DNA of 51,226 bases, taken from positions 1-51,226 of the forward strand of contig WIXG01000478.1 of NCBI GenBank assembly GCA_009869945.1, in the 5' to 3' direction. Position numbers and translations under genes: made by a program. Below the pieces are notes generated by a model. It was not told the DNA's origin and did not search any database. It was given only the letters and a program-made list of their open reading frames with translations. Of the stretch, positions 1 to 39,165 are shown piece after piece (within the stretch, counting starts at the first letter, position 1; each line of letters opens with the position of its first letter). Source of the stretch: Mesaphorura yosii (Eukaryota; Arthropoda; Collembola; Poduromorpha; Tullbergiidae).

Positions 1-1178
1 TGACGGACTTCACGATCTCGTAGATTTGATCTCCCTGGTTGCAGAACTTCTTGAAAGCCCTTGGCCATGGGATTTCTCCTTGGATGGTTTCGTGGCTGTC
101 TTCAGCGGAAGCGGAGTCCTGGTTTTGGGCCAACTTCTTGTAGGTGGCGTATTGTTGGAAGTTATCGTAGTATTTGTGTCTGTTGGCATCGGTTTCCTCT
201 GAGCTTTCTCCGCTGCTGCTGTTTTGTTGCTCGCTCTTGGCGTCCTTCTCGTCGGAGCTGGAGTCATCGTCTTGGACTGGTTGAGCTTGCTTTTGGAATT
301 GGAATGGAGCGTCGAAGGGTCCGTTTTGGGAGACGGTGTAGTAGGTCTCGCATTCACCGTGAACGGTCTCTTCCATGGTCTCATAGAAGAATCCGGACTC
401 TTGGTTCTGTTGGTCTGGGTGGACGGCGTTAGTTTTGCGGTTCAAATTGCCCCCAACGACGACATTGACGCCAGTGGTGTCCAAGATGAAGTGTGAGACT
501 TGAGCTTTCTTGATGTTGACAGCCCAGGTGGGGAGGCGACCGTCTACCTTGATGGAGTCGACGACACCTTGTCTCATTCTCTGCAAGACAAAAGAAATCG
601 CATTGAAATTAACTTAATTATTAATTTCATTCCTGATCAGGAGAATGGGGAAGGAAGAGAAACTCACCATTTCAATTGGACTTTCGAGGTATTCCTTGAG
701 CTGCCCATTGATTTGGAGTGGGCTCTCGTTCTCGAGGATACCGTCTCTCCATCCGCCTTGGATTTGTTGGTTCACTTCAACGGCCTTGAAATTCGTTGGC
801 TGAAAGAGTCAAACAAACGAAGGGTAAATTAAATTCAGTCTCCGATCCGTTGTTCATGTTCAGCGATTCAGTCTGTAGACTCACCTTCAAGTTGATTGTT
901 TCCGGTCCGACAACGGTGAGTAGGATTTGGTACTCAACTTGCATGCCAGAATATTGAGTATGTTGGCTGAGTCCGGTGAAGATGCGTCCACGAACATCGT
1001 AGGTGTAGGTGAGTCCAACTTTCCAGGCGAAGTCGGTGGAAGCATACCCCACTGAATAATTGACAAGAAAAGTAAATAGTAATTAACGATTATGCTCAAT
1101 TCTGCCAATCTGTGAACAGCATTTAACAAAATTTGACTTGCCCAAGCAAAGGGTGAGAAGGAAGGCTGCTGCCCTCAT
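1..1178 (-). CDS. Vitellogenin (5' part only, runs off the left edge)
   Basis: Yolk-protein precursor of the large lipid transfer protein family, secreted and taken up by oocytes. Exons read 1178-1142, 1051-885, 799-668 and 580 to beyond position 1, about 305 residues. Exon 1 codes a signal peptide starting MRAAAFLLTLCLG; exon 2 carries the conserved start of the N-terminal beta-barrel (DFAWKVGLTYTYDVRGR); later exons carry the LPTWAVNIKKAQ and HGECETYYTVSQNGPF blocks and a Ser/Asp/Glu-rich linker. It aligns closely with the complete vitellogenin at 28335-34675. Intron 1 has a GC donor (GCAAGT) where the other two relatives have GT. It has an intron at 667-581 that the other copy lacks, and no intron where the other copy has one (33709-33801). 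The lipid cavity and VWD domain would lie outside the window. Start chosen as the only ATG giving a signal peptide in phase with exon 2. Confidence 0.93.
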
Positions 1179-3226: not shown

Positions 3227-3235
3227 TATAAAAGG
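3227..3235 (+). promoter_or_regulatory. TATA box of the vitellogenin-N/crystallin gene
   Basis: TATAAAAGG, 126 bp before the start codon at 3361. A TCAGTC initiator-like element follows with its A at 3276, 49 nt from the first T of the TATA box, similar to the spacing seen at the two vitellogenin promoters in this window. Confidence 0.65.
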
Positions 3236-3360: not shown

Positions 3361-5510
3361 ATGAAAGCAATAATCTGCTTGTTGGCTGTCGTCGGGGGTA
3401 AGTTTTACTGTACAATTATCCGCTTGTGCACACAGCAGCAGCCACCAAATTTTAATCTTTCCATTTGTATTTGTGTAATTGCAGCCTGCTTCGCGGCCCA
3501 GCAAGGCCAGGAGCCAGGATGGGACATTGGCAAGACCTACACTTACCAAGTGCAGGGCCATGCACTATCTGGACTTCGCGTTGACCAGCACGGAGGACTT
3601 CAGTTGAAATACAAAGTCAAATTGACTAGACAAGGACAAAATCAATACTATCTGCAGGTAGCATACCGCTTTAACTAAGCTGGAGCTACATGCTCAACTC
3701 TGTCATCTTTTATTGCTCCTAATGTAAATGTGTTTTGTATATTTTAGCCAAAAGACTTCCAAGTCATGACCAACTGCATCCAAGAATGTCAGCAAGTGCC
3801 AAACCGCCCAATTCCCCAGTCTCTCCTCCAGTACCTCGAGGCTCCAATCCAATTCTCCATGACCCCACAAGGCAAGATCAACTCCATCCGTTTCGATCAC
3901 ACCATCCCACACTGGGCCATGAACTTCAAGAAAGCTCAGATGGCTCCATTCATCGCCAACATTCAGTACCCACAACAATTGACCCGTCAGCAGCAACAGC
4001 AACAATCCCAGTCCAAGGTGCAACAGGACGAGAAGACTGTCTACGGTGAGTGCAAAGTTCAATACCTCTTCGAGCAATATGGCCAACAACAACAGCACGA
4101 AGAACAGAACCAATACTCACCACAAAATCAACAACAAAAGCAACAGCAACAACAACAATCATGGTACCAACGTATCGCTGCATACTACAATGATGACAAT
4201 GACTCCGATAGCAGCAGCAGCAGTAGCCAGCAGCAAGATGATGACGACAATCAATACAGAGGAAATAACCGCAATCAGTACAACAGTCACAACAGAAACA
4301 GCCGCAACCAATACAACGATGATGACAGCTCAGGCGACAACAGCGCTCAAGGCTTCTTCGCCAAGCTCGGACGAAAAATCGGAATGGGATCCGGATCAGA
4401 CGAACAAGAAAGCCAAGAACAAAACCAAGTAAGGGACAATTCACAAAGATTTTAATGGGGCATCTTGCATCTAGCTAAATATTGTTCTGATTCGTTGCAG
4501 ATCCGTCGTGGAAACGGACAAGAGTCCAGCGAAGAGCAGGGGCAAGCTGAAAGAAAGAACTGCGACTCATCTGACCAGAAATTCCAATTCTTGAAGATGT
4601 ACCGAGTCAACGACTGCTCACACACGCCAAACTTCTCCAACTCCAGCTCCAGCTCAACACAGCGTAGCATCAACAAGGTAAGAACAGTGACCAATGTTTT
4701 TTTTCACCAAATCCACACGATGTTCGATATAATCTGACGATCGGGAATATTTGTTCTGTTTTTGCAGCGTCAAGTCTTCACCCGCTACTACGCTTGCGGT
4801 CAAAACAAGAACAACTACAACATTTATCACATTGAGCGCCGTGAAGCCACCAAAGAGGCCCAACAAGCTGTTCAACAATTGACCCTGGTCGACATTTCTT
4901 CCTCACCCTCTGCCAGAAGCCAGCAAATTCAACAACCAAGCGTTTACTCAAATCTCGCCTACAACTTCGAAGCTCAACAACTCAAACAAAAACCAATCGT
5001 CGGTAAGTGCGAGATTGTATGAGTTTCATCCGTGAGAAATGAGAATGAGAAATTCTAAATCCAAACCTAATTTCTGTTTTTCTGTTATACTTTTTGGCTA
5101 GAAATGGACAAAGAAGAATACCAAAAGCAGCTGAGATCTCGTGCTGGAGTTGGACAAGTTGATATCTTCCAAGACAGCGACTACCAAGGTGAGACAAATG
5201 TTTCATGCAATGAGCGTAGTTTGTACCGCAGTCGATCAAATTCCGCACGACACTTGTTAATCCTCCTTTCTTTTTTCTGATCGCAGGTCAACACACCACC
5301 CTCGACGTCCCAGTTGGCAAATGTCTCGGACTTCCCAGCGGCTGGAACGACGCCATCAGCAGCATCGACCCGCAAATGAGCTGTGTCATCCTCTGGGAAC
5401 ATCGCGGCTGCTCCGGTGAAGCTGTTCGTCTTGAGCGCTACTCCTGGGGAACCAGCCAGCTCTCCCGTGTCAACATGGACAACAGAGCAACTGCCATTCA
5501 ACTGTGTTAA
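3361..5510 (+). CDS. Short vitellogenin N-terminal domain protein fused to a beta/gamma-crystallin domain
   Basis: Exons 3361-3397, 3485-3657, 3748-4428, 4501-4677, 4768-5002, 5102-5188 and 5287-5510 give 537 aa. Signal peptide MKAIICLLAVVGACFA, then the vitellogenin barrel start (GWDIGKTYTYQVQG), HWAMNFKKAQ and YGECKVQYLF blocks, a long Gln/Ser/Asp/Asn-rich insert (about 140-300), and a later barrel segment (TRYYACG, LTLVDI). There is no helical, lipid-cavity or VWD region. Residues 454-537 form two Greek-key motifs: VDIFQDSDYQG with NDAISS (484-489), then CVILWEHRGCSGE with DNRATA (528-533). NDAISS fits the calcium-binding consensus N/D-N/D-x-x-S/T-S. Three introns (end of signal peptide, before PKDF, before RQVFTR) match vitellogenin intron positions and phases, showing descent from a vitellogenin. 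Secreted; role unknown, possibly an egg-coat, haemolymph or clotting-type protein (inference). Confidence 0.9.
3994..4220 (+). repeat. Coding CAR/AGC low-complexity tract (polyGln, polySer)
   Basis: Runs of CAA/CAG near 3994-4010, 4083-4095 and 4129-4160, and AGC repeats near 4209-4224, encode Gln and Ser homopolymers inside exon 3 of the vitellogenin-N/crystallin gene. Mixed CAA and CAG codons suggest that the Gln content is kept at protein level and is not only a fresh slippage product. Confidence 0.7.
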
Positions 5511-5996: not shown

Positions 5997-7603
5997 CTAA
6001 GGCTGCACTTTGTAAGAATGTACCGTGTCAATGAAAGTTTGGACATTGGCGACTGGCGTCTCAGGATAGATGCCATGTCCTAAGTTGCAAATGTAATTTG
6101 TGGTCCCAAATCCTGCGATCATTTCTTTCACTTCTCGTTTAATTGTCTCCTGCGCAAATGAAACGAAACAAATTCAAATCTCCAAATGTAGTAAGTTCTT
6201 TAATGAATTTGTTCATAGGAGGGAAAACCGGTTAATTACCTCAGCCCCAAATAGGGCTACTGGATCCATATTCCCTTGCATCGCTTTGTCCCCGAGTAAA
6301 ACTCTTGTCGATTTGGCATCAACAGTCCAGTCTAACCCAATCACATTGTATCCTAGCTTGGAAATTTCCTCCAAGGCGTAGTGAGCACCTTTTGCAAATA
6401 TGATCTGGAATGCAGAAGACACTTCGTAAAAATACACGAATACATAACCCCCAATAATTTAGTCCGCTTTAATTTTACCATTGGCACAGGTTGTAGTGCG
6501 AGAGCGCTGAGTGTTGCCAAAACTTCGTCACGAATTCTTTTCAGCACTGGAATGCAGTACTCTTTGAACAAGTACGGACTCAGCAGATCAGCGTGAGACT
6601 CAAACACTTGTAGCAGCTAGAAAAGATTGAGAAGTTTTAGTTTACTTCTGCAATGATGGCAAGTCCACACCAAGCAACATAATATTACCTGAGCGCCTGA
6701 CTTAACTTGCTCAACAAGATATCGAATTACGACGTTCCCAATTCGCTCAATCAGGTCTTTGGACTGCTCTGGATATTTGTACAGCCAGCTTTTAGATTTT
6801 GTTAAAGTTTTGCTGCCTCCGCCTTCGATCATGTAGCTCATTAAAGTCCACTACGAATTAAGGGTTAATCAATAAAGATAACATTCATGCTGTGGCACTT
6901 GATTACCGGCGCTCCAGAAAAGCCAATCAATGGCACTCGTCCGTTCAGTAACTTCCTAGTCAATGTAATCGCTTCTAGCGTGCCTTTCATCTTCTCTGTG
7001 ACATCAGCTTCGAAGTTTAATTTCTTTACATCATTTGGCGAGGCAAGCGGTGCAGGAAGTACAGGCCCCTATTTCAAGATAGGATTTCTGTTCAAAAGTC
7101 TGACCCAATTGTTCTGTAGAACAATAGTAAGAGCAAACCTACAAGACCCGGTTCCATCTTCACCTCCATGCCAATTGCTTGCGGAATGACGAGAATATCG
7201 GAGAAGATTATTGCCGCATCCAAATCAAATCTTTCGATTGGTTGCAGTGTAATTTTCGCTGCCAATTCCGGAGTGTTCACAATCTCAAAAAAGCCATGTT
7301 GCTTCCGCACTTCTAGGAATTCTAGAGATCGGAACAAAAGAGCATCGTAACTTTGTGACTGCGTGCCGTATAAATGGCGCGAGCATCGCACGCTAATACC
7401 TGGAAGATAGCGTCCAGCTTGTCTCATCAACCAAACTGGAATTCGGTGTGGCACTTCGCCGTTGGAAACCTTCAGAATCGCATCATTCTGCAACGGTGGG
7501 AATGTTTCCTGCGCGTAATAACCGATGTCAAGTAAAGCAAGAGAATTCAGCCCATAGTTTTAATACGGCGTACGTTTACGTTTTAATCATGACGTACCTT
7601 CAT
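5997..7603 (-). CDS. UROD: Uroporphyrinogen decarboxylase
   Basis: Fifth enzyme of haem synthesis, cytosolic: removes four carboxyl groups from uroporphyrinogen III to give coproporphyrinogen III. Exons 7603-7598, 7508-7400, 7321-7143, 7068-6907, 6850-6689, 6616-6479, 6404-6240 and 6149-5997 join in phase to 357 aa (human 367). Family signatures are intact: MRQAGRYLP (substrate-binding arginines), [15 protein letters not shown] (catalytic Asp), [34 protein letters not shown] and LGHGIYP near the C terminus. All introns are short and GT-AG. The first coding exon holds only two codons (ATG AAG) before GTACGT; no other in-frame ATG exists before the upstream stop, so this start is the best available but is less sure than the rest. 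Divergent from SKI3, 0.5 kb away. Confidence 0.96.
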
Positions 7604-28334: not shown

Positions 28335-31300
28335 TTACCAGTTGCGGACGCACTCAGTGGGCATGTCCACGTACAGCTGCTTACGGACGGACTGGGTCAG
28401 TGGGGTCACGTGTCTGAAGTCGACACAGTCAAACCAGACCAACTTGCGTACGGGGTTCGATGCTACGCAGCCTCGAGCGCAGGTGCGAATGGGGCGCTCC
28501 GAGTGACACTCGCCAAGGCCAGCCGGATGACGGACCAACTTCTGAAGGACGTAACAGTCGTCATCATCTTCCATACGCGGGCGAGGGCTGAATTCGTCGT
28601 CATTTTCCATGTCCATGGTCATCGTCGGCTTCGGGATTCGCATATGAGTATGGACTTTGCGGCAATCGGCTTCCTCCTCCTCAACTCGGGTCTTCAGTTC
28701 CGGCTTCAGAGTGCACTGTCCTCCTTGCCCGTGAATTGGTGGGAAAGCATAGCTTGTGAGTAAGAGTGATCCTGAGCTGAGTGGGCAGTCCTTCGGGCTC
28801 CTGAACTCAGCAGTCTTCTCTCCGTCAAAGTCACCACACAAACCGCAGGTTCTGTTGCGATACGCGTTATCGCCGAATACGACGACACGGTTACAATCGG
28901 TGGCCACCTTGAGTTTTGGAGTGATGATTTGAATACCACCAGTCACCATTCTTTCAATCTTGCAAATGTACATATCGCTGTCTGGTTGTTGGTCATTGGA
29001 GCGAATGATTTTGGGGAATGTTGTGACGTCTTGGCCGTTGACGCGTACTTTCAAGTTTTCGCCTTCCTTTCTCATCCAGTGCAATGGGCTGCGGGAACCA
29101 GGCAGGATTTCAATCTTGGTTGCGTGACTGAAAAGGACGGTAACCATCTTGTTCATGGTGTGAATGTCTCGGACGAGAACAGCCATTGGCCACTTGCCGG
29201 AGCAGTCTTGAGTCAGAACATGCTCACAGTTTCGGGTGATGTCTTTGCCGAATTTGAAGGTGACATTGTCGAATGTGTTGATGTAGTTTGATTCGAGAGT
29301 GCAAACCGCTACATGAAAGAAAGAAGGAGTGTGTTAAGCCATAGCTTGAACCTAATCACACGAGAGAGAAAAGATTGGACGTTAGCTTACGATTCATGAC
29401 TGGACGGATAACGCGCTTGAGAATGTGTTCGGGAAGAGTCAGGGTGGGAGTGAGTGGCAGCATTCTCCTGATCCACCAGTTCGTTTTAATGTTCTTGAAC
29501 ATGATGTGAGATTCTGGCTTGCGAATGTTAATGTGCACAAACTCCATGTCGGGTTTCATATGCCAGTCAATGACCATGTTTCGCTCTCCTACACCTCCTT
29601 CGACTGGGAATCGTTCATGGCGCATGTAATTGTAGAGCGTGTTCTTCATGATGTCTTGGAGCATGAAGCACATACGTTTGAATGGCACTGGTAGATTCTC
29701 GGTCCACTGTAACGTAACAGATTGAAATTGCAATGCACAAACTCAAGCAGGCAAGCTCTCAAGGCATCATAACGTAGTTAAATTTAAACTTACGGTAATC
29801 TGCATCTTGCCCTCGTTCAATGCGGTCGCCTGTTCACGAACAAGACGGAGGCATACTCGTGATACGCTGAATCCCTTCTTCTCGTCCTCAATGCATTTCT
29901 TGGCCAACGGAGACTTATTGCGTGCCCATTCGGTCATTTTCTCATTTCTCTTCAGTTCCGAATCCATTTTGATTTTGTGGTTCATTTGCGTGCAAGTGCG
30001 GCCGAAATTGATTTCGCCTACAAGCAATTAAACAGCAATTCATTAGAATAGTAAGGAAAATACGGAGTGCTTACGTCTGCTTCAAATCCAATTTCTTAAT
30101 TGTGAACTTACTCTTTATTTTAACAATCAAGTCCTCAGCCAGCAGTCTCTTTCGGAGCACGACAAGGTCGCGATTGGTCCACTCTGGCCATTCAAGTATT
30201 TTGCGGACTTCGACGCAGTAGTTCGTTTCGGTAAGTTGAACAGTGGAGCTCATAACGAAGTCTCGGATTGGGACGGTCCATGGCTCGTTCTGTGGCAACT
30301 TGGTCACAAGTTCTTTGCATGGCTCACCGATCGCAGTGCGAATCACTACGAGGTCACGGTTCAATTTCAAGTGGACGAGATACATGAGAGTGGACGGAGT
30401 TCCCTTCACGAGCATGTGCTGTATACCATGCGATCTTTCCACTGGCATAATGGGGCGCTTGATTCCAATCATGCCGAGGACATGATTACGTTCTTCACGG
30501 ACTTGTCCCTTCTCTGGCTCGTTGTTCCACTTCTTGCTACCACCCAGCATGAAGATGAGTGTCTTGGTTTCAGTCTTCGACAAATCAATGGATAATTTGC
30601 GCATAGAACGGACGACGAATGGATGGCCCATGTAGCCAAGATTCCACCATCCCATCGGTGTCTTGAACTGGTGGAGGTACCGCATCCAGCCGCTCATGCT
30701 CTCTGTTTCTGGTTTGTACTCGGATTCAACTTCGTAGCGGAGTGACCAGCCGAGGATCTTCTCGCCAAAGTTACGATCTATTTTGCATGGCGTGTCCATG
30801 AGTGCACGGTGGATTGGTTTCACGATGCCGGCTTCCGTCTTGTGAATTGGCCACATGGCGTCCTTGACGATGGCGGTGTACGGCTTCTGGTGGAATGTAA
30901 TGAGGTTGAGTTCTCCGGTGGGAGTCGTGTCGTGGAGGCGTGTTGGCGTGAGGGCAAGTTTGTAGAGGCCATGTTCGCCACGTCCAATGAGACAACGGAA
31001 TGGGAATTCTGTAACTAGATGCTGCTGTACTCCACATTGGTACTTCTTGTGAAGGAATGGAACCTTAAAGGAGACTTTGTGGTGCATTTTCCAAGCGTAG
31101 CTGGCAAATTAAAATAAAATCTTGTTTAAATTGGCGAACTTGGCTTACGGTTTTAGCCTTAAACGGTAATGTGTTAACTTACATCGGGTGCAAATCAGCT
31201 TGCAGTTGAACCACGTCGTTCTCCTTCACCCACTTCAAGTTTCCTCTAACGCTCAAATGCAGAGGCATTTCGTACTTTTGCATGATCGGAATACCAAACA

Positions 31301-34300
31301 AGCTGGGGAATTCAGTCACGTGTTCGACCATGTGTAGGGTTTTCTGCCAGTTGATTGGGAGCCCATCGTTGAGTTTCGGGAGGGTGTTGTCCGTAAATTC
31401 CTTCATCAACCGATCAATTTTCTCCCTGTTGAGCGTGAAGAGGCGCTCCATCTCATTGTGAATCTTGACGTAGATTGAGCCAACAACCTTGTCAGTCTGC
31501 TTGCGGTCGGTCATTCCAAGCAGGTCGCGAATCTTGTTCATGTCCTCATGCGCTTGTCTGTCTCCACTCATTGGAACCCAAACCTTCTCGAGGAAGTGAT
31601 CGAGAAGCTTCTGGATTGAGTGGCCATGGATGGAGAGTTCGAGAGGATTGTACCCGAGGGCACCATCACCAAACGCTCTGTAGTTCCTAAAGTAAATGTC
31701 ATCTGGAATCCACGAATCCTTGGCTCCCATTGTGGACAGCTGATAAAAGAACGAGGACATATGATATTCAAGATTGACTGAGTCAAAAATGTTGTGAGAT
31801 TTCATCCAGTTTAGTGTCTTGACTGGTTTGCAGAGCGACAGCACAAAGCGGGCTCTCTTTTGTCTATAAACGGGGAAGAAGTTAATTAGAATTGAGTAAA
31901 GTTAATAAAACAGCACAGGATACTTACAGTTTCCAGTGAACGGTTGCTGTTGCTTTTTCAAGGCCAGCCAGATTCCTGAATGATGTGCAGATGAACGTGC
32001 GGACTTCTTCCGAGACCTCGAACCAAGTCATGTACGCGAGTTGTTGCCAGATGGTCACGTCAGCGTTGGTTGTGTACATCAGCAATGAGATGGCAGCAAT
32101 GCGGACATGTGGATGCTCACCCTTGTCAAAGGCGACCGAGACCAAGATGGGCATCACGCGCTTCTCGATGACTTCATCAGTCAGGCAGTCAATCGACCTG
32201 CGATCAATTCCGCGAACGCGAGACTCCTCCTTCAGATTCTGATTGGAACGCGAGACAATCATCTTCTTGAGCACGAACAAAGCCTTAACTTTGATAAACG
32301 GGTTGATGCAGTTGTCCATGATGCGCTGAACGAGTGGGATCACTGCGGGATGGCCGATATTTCCTAAGGCGGTGAGGTAGACCACCTTCCAGTGCATAAC
32401 TTCGTCGGTGTTCTCTGTGAAAACAATCTTCTCTAGTGCTTTAATGAAAAAGTCTAGGAACTCTTGCTCGACGAATTTCTCATCACAGAATTGTCCGTAG
32501 ACTTGGACTGGATAGCGGGTGTTCATGACGTTGGTGTTCACGCAGGCTTGGTGGAGGAGAGTTGTGAAAGAGAGCAGCCCGGCGGTCTTGAGTTGGCGGT
32601 TGCCAATCTCGACAGGCAGCATCTGCACCAGCTTGAAGAACTCTCGAAGAAGTTCCTTTGTCGGTGTGCGAATGTGAAGCGGAAGTGTCATCATAATTTG
32701 GACAACATGCTCGCCATTAATGTCGCGCTTGCGGATCAAATCGAGGAGGAATTTGATGTTGGGGTTGGTGCCAGCAATCGCGATAGTGTTGAGAAGAATG
32801 TGGTGACAGAATCTCTCTTCAACGGTAGATCTGAGATTACAAAATTGTGATGAGTAATTAATATCGCGACATAGTCTTGCAATTATCTTTGTCGGTACTC
32901 TCACCTTTTGTTGAACTTGACGTAGATCTCCTGGACATCTTGATAATTGCAGTAGCGCAGGATTTTCGCAACCGTTGTAATCTTGGACAGCGTTTCTTTC
33001 TCAGCAAGGCTGTCTTTGGTATTCTCCTTGTTCATCAAGTCATGGACAATCTCACGCATCAGGATATCCACTCTGCGTTTCATTTCGTCGATTTTCACCG
33101 GTGAGATGAGCATCGTGTTCAGTGGTGCATCGACGAGATTTGGTTTTGGCAACACGTCACCCTCGTTCGTTTTGTGGGTGGTGTCCATGTCCCTTCCGTG
33201 CATATGGACCTTGTTCATGGGGAACTTGTACACGAGGTTCGGAATGACGGTTGGGTTGTGAAGTTTGGGCAAGTTCTTCATGTCCATGATGTCGATCAGG
33301 GTCAAGTTCTTGATGGCACCAGCAATCAGCTTTTCGGTGTAGTGGAGACCCAAGTTGACTTGTTCTTCTTGACGAATCTTGAGAATTGTGAATTGCTTGC
33401 GATCGACTCCGCAGGCCAGGAACCGAGACACGACAGCTCTCTGAAGAAGAAGAGAAAGGTCAAGTTTACAGCGCAAAAGAAAATGTCTTAAGCAGGATAA
33501 GGTTCAATTTGCTTACCAGTCCGAAGGATCCAATCATATTGTCTCCGGCACGGGCGTTGGTGCTTGCCGCTGGCGACAGAACTCCGTACACAGGCTTCTT
33601 GTTGCATGATGTGAAATTTACCGACTTGATGATCTCGAAGACTTGATCTCCGTCGTTACAGTACTCGTGCCAGGTTCTGTGCCATGAAAGTTCGCGCCCG
33701 AGCATTTTCTATGAAGACAAAGTGTAGTTGAGATTATAGATTTCGCTACACTCATACCGGTGAGAAACGAGAAATCACGCATCATTCACCATTTCACTAA
33801 CCTTTTCGCTGGTATGACTTTCCATGCTCTCTTCCGAAGACTCTTCTGAGCTGCTCTCACCAGGCTGGGCTTGTTTCTGGAACGGGAATGGCTTCATAAA
33901 AGCCTCATTCTGGCTAACTGTGTAGTATGTCTTGCATTCCCCGTGCACGGTGGTCTCAATTGTCTCGAAGAAGCGACCAGACTCGAGTGTTGGGTAGTCT
34001 GAATGAACGTGGTCGATCTTGCGATTGAGGTTGCCTTCGAGCACAACACGGACGCCAGTCGTGTCGAGGACGAAGTGAGAGGCCTGAGCCTTCTTGATAT
34101 TGACTGCCCACGTCGGGAGTGACTGTTCCACCTTGATGGATTCAATCACACCACGGTTGAGGGTCAGCTCGATCGGCGACTCGAGGTACGTGCGGAATTC
34201 AGGCTCAAGCTCAACGGGAGTCATGCCCTCGAGGTTGGCGTCGCGCCAGCCGCCGTTCAACACGTCGTGAACTTCAACAATTTTGAATTCGAGAGGCTGA

Positions 34301-34675
34301 AAGAGAAAAGGAATTAAATGAACTAAGGAAAAGTAAAGTGCATGTAGAGAAACTCTGGCAACATTTTGCGTCAACTTACCTTCAAAATAACAGTATTTTG
34401 ATCCTTGCGAGTCAGCATAATTTTGTAGTCCATTTCCATTCCCGAGTATTGTGTGTTAATCTCCGACAGTCCAGTCATCAGCCGACCACGAACCATGTAC
34501 GTGTACGTCTTGCCCATTTTCCAAGCAAAGTCTTGGGAAGTCGCCCAGCCCACTGTAAATTAGTACGAGCAACGAGCAAATTAGCTAATGATATGATCGT
34601 AAGAGTAAAATTTTGAGATTTTCTCAAATTACCCAAGAGGCAGAGGCAGAGTGCTGAAAGGCTGTTCGCCTTCAT
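28335..34675 (-). CDS. Vg: Vitellogenin, complete
   Basis: Secreted yolk-protein precursor. Eleven exons join in phase: 34675-34633, 34552-34380, 34296-33802, 33708-33517, 33440-32905, 32830-31928, 31863-31183, 31100-30112, 30017-29794, 29706-29391 and 29308-28335, giving 1841 aa. Order: signal peptide (MKANSLSALCLCLLG), N-terminal lipid-transfer barrel and helical region (about 17-780), a short Ser/Glu linker after PFPFQKQ (about 215-235), open beta-sheet region, then a VWD domain from about 1519 (ESNYINTFDNVTFKFGKD, GLCGDFDGE near 1668) and a Cys-containing C-terminal tail. No furin-type RxxR was noticed in the Ser-rich linker. It has no SOD domain. Paralogue of the partial gene at 1-1178. 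The stop codon TAA is embedded in GTAAGA, a good splice donor, so a further exon cannot be fully excluded. Confidence 0.95.
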
Positions 34676-39093: not shown

Positions 39094-39165
39094 TCTCGAG
39101 TAGTATAGTGGTAAGTATCCCCGCCTGTCACGCGGGAGACCGGGGTTCGATTCCCCGCTCGAGAG
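39094..39165 (+). tRNA. tRNA-Asp(GTC): tRNA-Asp (anticodon GUC)
   Basis: A complete cloverleaf without intron. The acceptor stem TCTCGAG (39094-39100) pairs with CTCGAGA (39158-39164), with G39165 as discriminator. Anticodon stem CCCGC/GCGGG (120-124/132-136 of 39xxx) encloses CTGTCAC with GTC at 39127-39129. A box TAGTATAGTGG and B box GGTTCGATTCC are intact, and a T7 run (39168-39174) follows as Pol III terminator. CCA is not encoded, as expected in animals. Confidence 0.97.

Follow-up and report, generated by a model that had tools for sequence, protein, structure and literature searches.

Vitellogenin is usually viewed as a single lipid-carrying unit. Its N-terminal barrel (the N-sheet) is reported to be the receptor-binding region of the fish protein and, in the honey bee, to be released by cleavage as a 40-kDa fragment; the honey bee is also the one species for which nuclear entry, DNA binding and ChIP-seq sites of the N-sheet have been reported (PMC8924143). 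A vitellogenin paralogue of Hymenoptera, Vg-like-C, is reported to have only the N-sheet (PMC8258195).

Analysis of the window (the whole stretch of DNA analysed, 51,226 nucleotides; it is C478, one of the 1,127 contigs of a 93.0-Mb genome) revealed a gene at 3361–5510 on the plus strand in which such a barrel is followed by a crystallin-like domain, an architecture that is most likely real and that pairs known domains in a new way. Seven exons splice into a single open frame of 537 amino acids, and all six introns are GT-AG, 72–99 bases each and 536 bases summed; the single reconstructed product of the original prediction is thereby confirmed. The gene, its neighbouring elements and the vitellogenins used for comparison are as follows.

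1..1178, minus strand: a further vitellogenin, oriented head to head with the fusion gene and represented only by its N-terminal part, as the contig end cuts it
3227..3233, plus strand: TATAAAA, probable TATA box (pattern match), 134 bp 5' of the fusion ATG
3361..3397, plus strand: exon 1, with the ATG and the greater part of the signal peptide as judged by eye; the intron that follows is in phase 1, as it is in the complete vitellogenin
3485..3657, plus strand: exon 2, first barrel strands (GWDIGKTYTYQVQG...)
3748..4428, plus strand: exon 3, barrel and Q/N/D/S-rich linker
4501..4677, plus strand: exon 4, linker end and barrel cysteines C318 and C336
4768..5002, plus strand: exon 5, final part of the N-sheet barrel (RQVFTR... 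NLAYNF... KPIV)
5102..5188, plus strand: exon 6, linker sequence and the first crystallin strand (VDIFQDSDYQ)
5287..5510, plus strand: exon 7, which completes the two-motif domain (cysteines C476, C496, C505 and C537) and carries the stop codon
5731..5736, plus strand: AATAAA, probable poly(A) signal 3' of the fusion gene
28335..34675, minus strand: complete vitellogenin (comparison), with Vitellogenin_N, open beta-sheet and VWD

TATAAAW occurs 16 times in the window, both strands counted, which leaves position as the only argument for the candidate TATA box. Inspected by eye, the start of the fusion protein resembles a signal peptide, from which secretion would follow, and the linker region contains 42 Q within residues 151–320. 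Exons of URO-D (uroporphyrinogen decarboxylase) lie just downstream, at 6353–7559 on the minus strand, and a tRNA gene at 39094–39165 (plus strand) is the sole Rfam match in the window at the gathering threshold.

The vitellogenin-like beginning that had been proposed was recovered by a profile search, with Pfam Vitellogenin_N matching residues 25–446 (1e-14, 54.5 bits, cut-off 24) over profile positions 1–304 of 590. The same whole-protein search gave no match to the rest of Vitellogenin_N (the helical domain) or to the open beta-sheet, and none to VWD at E up to 10, consistent with the predicted loss of the lipid cavity and VWD region. Comparison with the complete vitellogenin, which lies about 22.8 kb from the fusion stop and whose pieces were joined by hand (29.4–31.1 kb was left out of the scan), revealed that the two proteins align through the barrel up to NLAYNF / NLVYKF and then diverge. 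Four introns are common to both genes, with phases 1, 0, 0, 0 in each: one in the signal peptide (phase 1), and one each before PKDF, RQVFTR and IRRG (phase 0). The intron before IRRG adds to the three positions noted originally, and the equivalence of the third shared intron in gene order is less sure because it is sited in a poorly aligned stretch. Four barrel cysteines (C172, C318, C336 and C366) are also kept. The four shared introns of equal phase uphold the view that the N-terminal part is a true vitellogenin derivative.

The start codons of the fusion gene and the head-to-head vitellogenin are separated by 2,182 bp, and we take the vitellogenins of the window to be insect- or arthropod-like. 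Across the genome, Vitellogenin_N gave 42 exon-level matches (E<=1) on ten contigs. When the barrel was used as a genome query, the matches other than the fusion itself were limited to the window's two vitellogenins and to pieces on C573 and C512, with 42% identity for the best; within the reach of that search, the fusion is therefore without a close second copy in the assembly. The pieces on C573 (36285–37331) and C512 (234–2212) lie at contig ends; the former is close to the cut vitellogenin at window positions 1–1178, and these pieces may belong together.

The C-terminal part was more difficult to place from the single sequence. No crystallin family was listed for the whole 537 residues in Pfam at E up to 10, and a PDB search with the whole protein gave chance matches only. 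The C-terminal 92 residues alone matched Inhibitor_I36 (0.0073; 16.7 bits, cut-off 21.1), Yeast-kill-tox (0.0076), Crystall_3 (0.038) and Crystall (0.057; 14 bits, cut-off 25), all four below the curated cut-offs, and the best two PDB matches of the crystallin half, protein S (E=0.024) and Ciona beta/gamma-crystallin (0.095), were not significant. However, a profile built from 15 other crystallin-like genes of the genome, excluding the fusion and P0001 (a relative from a second source, described below), scored fusion residues 453–537 at 6.8e-20 and 74.0 bits, against a best of 13.4 bits for 998 shuffled versions of the C-terminal 92 residues. Searched against PDB, this profile matched gamma-B crystallin (6e-13) and spherulin 3a (4e-6). 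Because the intermediate family matches both the fusion and solved crystallins, we identify residues 453–537, by sequence comparison, as a two-motif beta/gamma-crystallin domain. The Crystall profile match on which the original prediction had staked this domain was thus borderline and below the cut-off for the single sequence, whereas the crystallin assignment itself stood through the family profile. AlphaFold models had a mean pLDDT of 43.8 for P0001 aligned with window fragments, an alignment with misplaced exon 3 pieces, and of 38.7 for the stand-alone family member P0002 with two alignment rows, values too low for the models to show whether the fold is a double Greek key.

P0001 is a 561-residue protein from JGI data with the same joint and the same end as the fusion, to which it is 77% identical by BLASTP (75% in the search table). 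Identities amount to 78/88 in the crystallin domain and to 108/128 and 119/135 in the barrel; in the linker, 106 of the 160 aligned residues are identical, with a further 25 gapped columns. As a whole protein, P0001 was listed in Pfam for Vitellogenin_N only. Its coding sequence of 1,686 bases lies on a contig of 1,933 bases, which would be exceeded if the 536 bases of introns in the window were added, so P0001 is most likely a transcript; an intronless gene is the less likely alternative. P0001 is the only relative with the fusion found in protein searches, which reach only proteins of similar length sharing short words with the query. A search with its last 92 residues found P0001 itself alone, and the stand-alone members P0002 and P0003, both from other sources, were picked up with the family profile.

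Since P0001 carries the joint in a single 561-residue frame, exons 6 and 7 are part of the same gene, which contradicts their assignment to another gene, the outcome that was to refute the prediction; the pairing sought elsewhere has accordingly been found once, in the second source. P0001 is probably an independent, joined and transcribed copy, as judged from its sequence. That the fusion is an artefact, whether two misjoined genes, a misassembly or a decaying copy, would fit the weak single-sequence crystallin match, but the same joint in one frame of a 77% identical protein, together with the open frame and the GT-AG introns throughout, makes this highly improbable.

A genome search with the crystallin half gave 23 matches at E<=10. 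The fusion's own exons account for two, and 10 of the remaining 21 had E<=0.001. Fifteen of the 21 were aligned (C992, C177, C253, C8 at 332 kb, C50 and C194 were omitted, some of them partial or divergent), three of these (C314, C957 and C34) without the first strand. Genes of this type occur on C116, C426, C314, C67, C992, C349, C666, C34, C957, C447, C8 and other contigs, with clusters on C8 and C447, and most have four conserved cysteines; these are invariant in all 17 aligned rows (15 genomic, the fusion and P0001). In several stand-alone members a signal peptide alone precedes the domain (by eye), and on C349 and C666 there are T/P-rich stretches ahead of it. Vitellogenin_N was unmatched, in the genome profile search, on every contig with another crystallin match. 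By these sequence features, the fusion's crystallin half belongs to a secreted four-cysteine family expanded in the genome. Its nearest stand-alone relative is the gene on C116: each is the other's best match, but their grouping in the tree is weak (80/78).

Other observations were made on these contigs. Upstream of the C116 crystallin there is a long G/S-rich frame (L023 4523–5608, minus strand). Two more crystallin-like genes, of a different type, were noted: one by eye on C116 (L023 6717–7621, plus strand), the other on C658 (L001), where it is the genome's only Pfam Crystall match.

Pfam analysis of the 17 rows at E<=1 revealed Crystall in 13 (best 1.1e-5) and Inhibitor_I36 in 8 (best 1.4e-7). 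These matches bear on the chief rival to a yolk role, a defence or inhibitor protein in which the crystallin fold would act on microbes or proteases and the barrel would be a secreted carrier or surface-binding part. The expansion and diversity of the family, its I36 matches and the top, though sub-threshold, scores of the fusion's C-terminus with Inhibitor_I36 and Yeast-kill-tox are in its favour, but Crystall matches more rows, the structures that the family profile matches in the PDB are crystallins, and the head-to-head vitellogenin neighbour suits reproduction better. We consider a defence role unlikely, if worth keeping in mind.

Intron 5 sits between the barrel end and the crystallin part, and intron 6, in phase 1, interrupts the codon for the first Gly of the crystallin domain. 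Ten stand-alone genes were examined for an intron at the same codon and phase: seven have a clean one, one has a weak donor (L016) and two do not fit (L021 and L005). The genes on C67, C8 (at 334 kb), C349 and C666 are uninterrupted at that Gly codon. Since the crystallin half belongs to a local family and carries an intron common there, exon shuffling is the likely origin, and the passage of exons from a local crystallin gene to a duplicated vitellogenin is, from these sequences, the simplest account; the introns of both parents are still recognisable in the fusion. Thus, the gene very probably encodes a real, apparently single-copy, secreted protein that consists of an N-sheet-only vitellogenin paralogue, a Q-rich linker and the shuffled-in last exons of a secreted four-cysteine crystallin gene. 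No vitellogenin–crystallin fusion was described in the literature searched, by titles and abstract openings and mostly outside subscription journals, in line with the statement that no family of this architecture was known.

Analysis of the calcium motifs by pattern bore out that NDAISS (484–489) fits the consensus [DN][DN]xx[ST]S and that DNRATA (528–533) is a near match, without the last Ser, in both the fusion and P0001. The same pattern also occurs by composition at 221 and 260 in the linker, and these occurrences make the motif alone weak evidence of calcium binding. Among the 15 relatives, the exact first site is present in 3 and the exact second in 7, and most relatives are without at least one exact motif. 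Calcium binding by the fusion's crystallin domain is possible from the sequence, and the label "calcium-type" reflects one exact and one near-consensus site, from which we infer it.

A functional account can be built by analogy with vitellogenin. The fusion would be produced in yolk-producing tissue and then secreted, as vitellogenin is; the barrel would bring it to an oocyte or haemolymph partner without a lipid load, the crystallin domain would be a compact, disulphide-bonded and possibly calcium-binding cargo, and the linker would be an extra amino-acid store. We infer the tissue, the receptor binding and the calcium and storage roles in this way, and likewise that the fusion may be an egg or haemolymph protein. 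This secreted, barrel-addressed, lipid-free crystallin carrier with a linker store is put forward tentatively, its chance being somewhat below even; as a whole, with anatomy, origin and function taken together, the explanation is the best available and falls just short of an even chance. A narrower proposal, that the barrel is an address label for the vitellogenin receptor of the oocyte and delivers a non-lipid, calcium-binding or defensive crystallin cargo, is doubtful.

The barrel has been kept with high identity between the two sources (108/128 and 119/135), which suggests a specific barrel function. This argues against a purely structural or storage protein in the haemolymph or egg coat, which would make no use of a vitellogenin receptor and in which calcium and disulphides would give durability only; the long Q/N/S/D-rich linker, the invariance of the four cysteines in 17/17 rows and the loss of the lipid module would all suit such a protein, which we nevertheless hold to be rather improbable. 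A regulatory N-sheet protein can also be drawn by analogy from the nuclear N-sheet and ChIP-seq sites reported for the honey bee (PMC8924143). The crystallin domain and its four cysteines point instead to an extracellular site, the nuclear form is reported there from one species only, and a regulatory role is very unlikely.

A natural construct that joins the barrel alone to a crystallin, with both domains well conserved in two sources, would allow a direct approach to the question of whether the barrel by itself suffices for receptor binding and egg import. The locus also brings out a secreted four-cysteine branch of the beta/gamma-crystallins, expanded in a 93-Mb animal genome.

Comparison with known systems places the fusion beside several partial counterparts. 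Vg-like-C is likewise an N-sheet-only vitellogenin paralogue, but in the excerpted text it is a protein of Hymenoptera only, of 948–978 sites and with crystallin unmentioned, and the comparison is by description alone (PMC8258195). The honey bee 40-kDa N-sheet is free of the lipid module, like the fusion's barrel, but, as far as the excerpts of the report go, it is a product of protein cleavage rather than of its own gene and is without a crystallin (PMC8924143). The conventional vitellogenin at 28335–34675 shares with the fusion the N-sheet barrel, the four introns with their phases and the four barrel cysteines, and continues with the rest of Vitellogenin_N, the open beta-sheet and VWD, where the fusion has the crystallin domain instead. 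The stand-alone crystallin-like genes, of which that on C116 is nearest, have the two motifs, the four cysteines and, in 7/10, the phase-1 intron, as in the fusion, and unlike it they have no Vitellogenin_N on their contigs. Gamma-crystallins, spherulin 3a, protein S and the Ciona beta/gamma-crystallin have the two-motif domain matched by the family profile but no vitellogenin part, and the four-cysteine pattern belongs to the local family. The beta/gamma-crystallin-fused aerolysin-like protein of amphibians resembles the fusion in that a crystallin domain is carried on an unrelated secreted module in an animal; its partner and the animals concerned differ from those of the vitellogenin–crystallin fusion.
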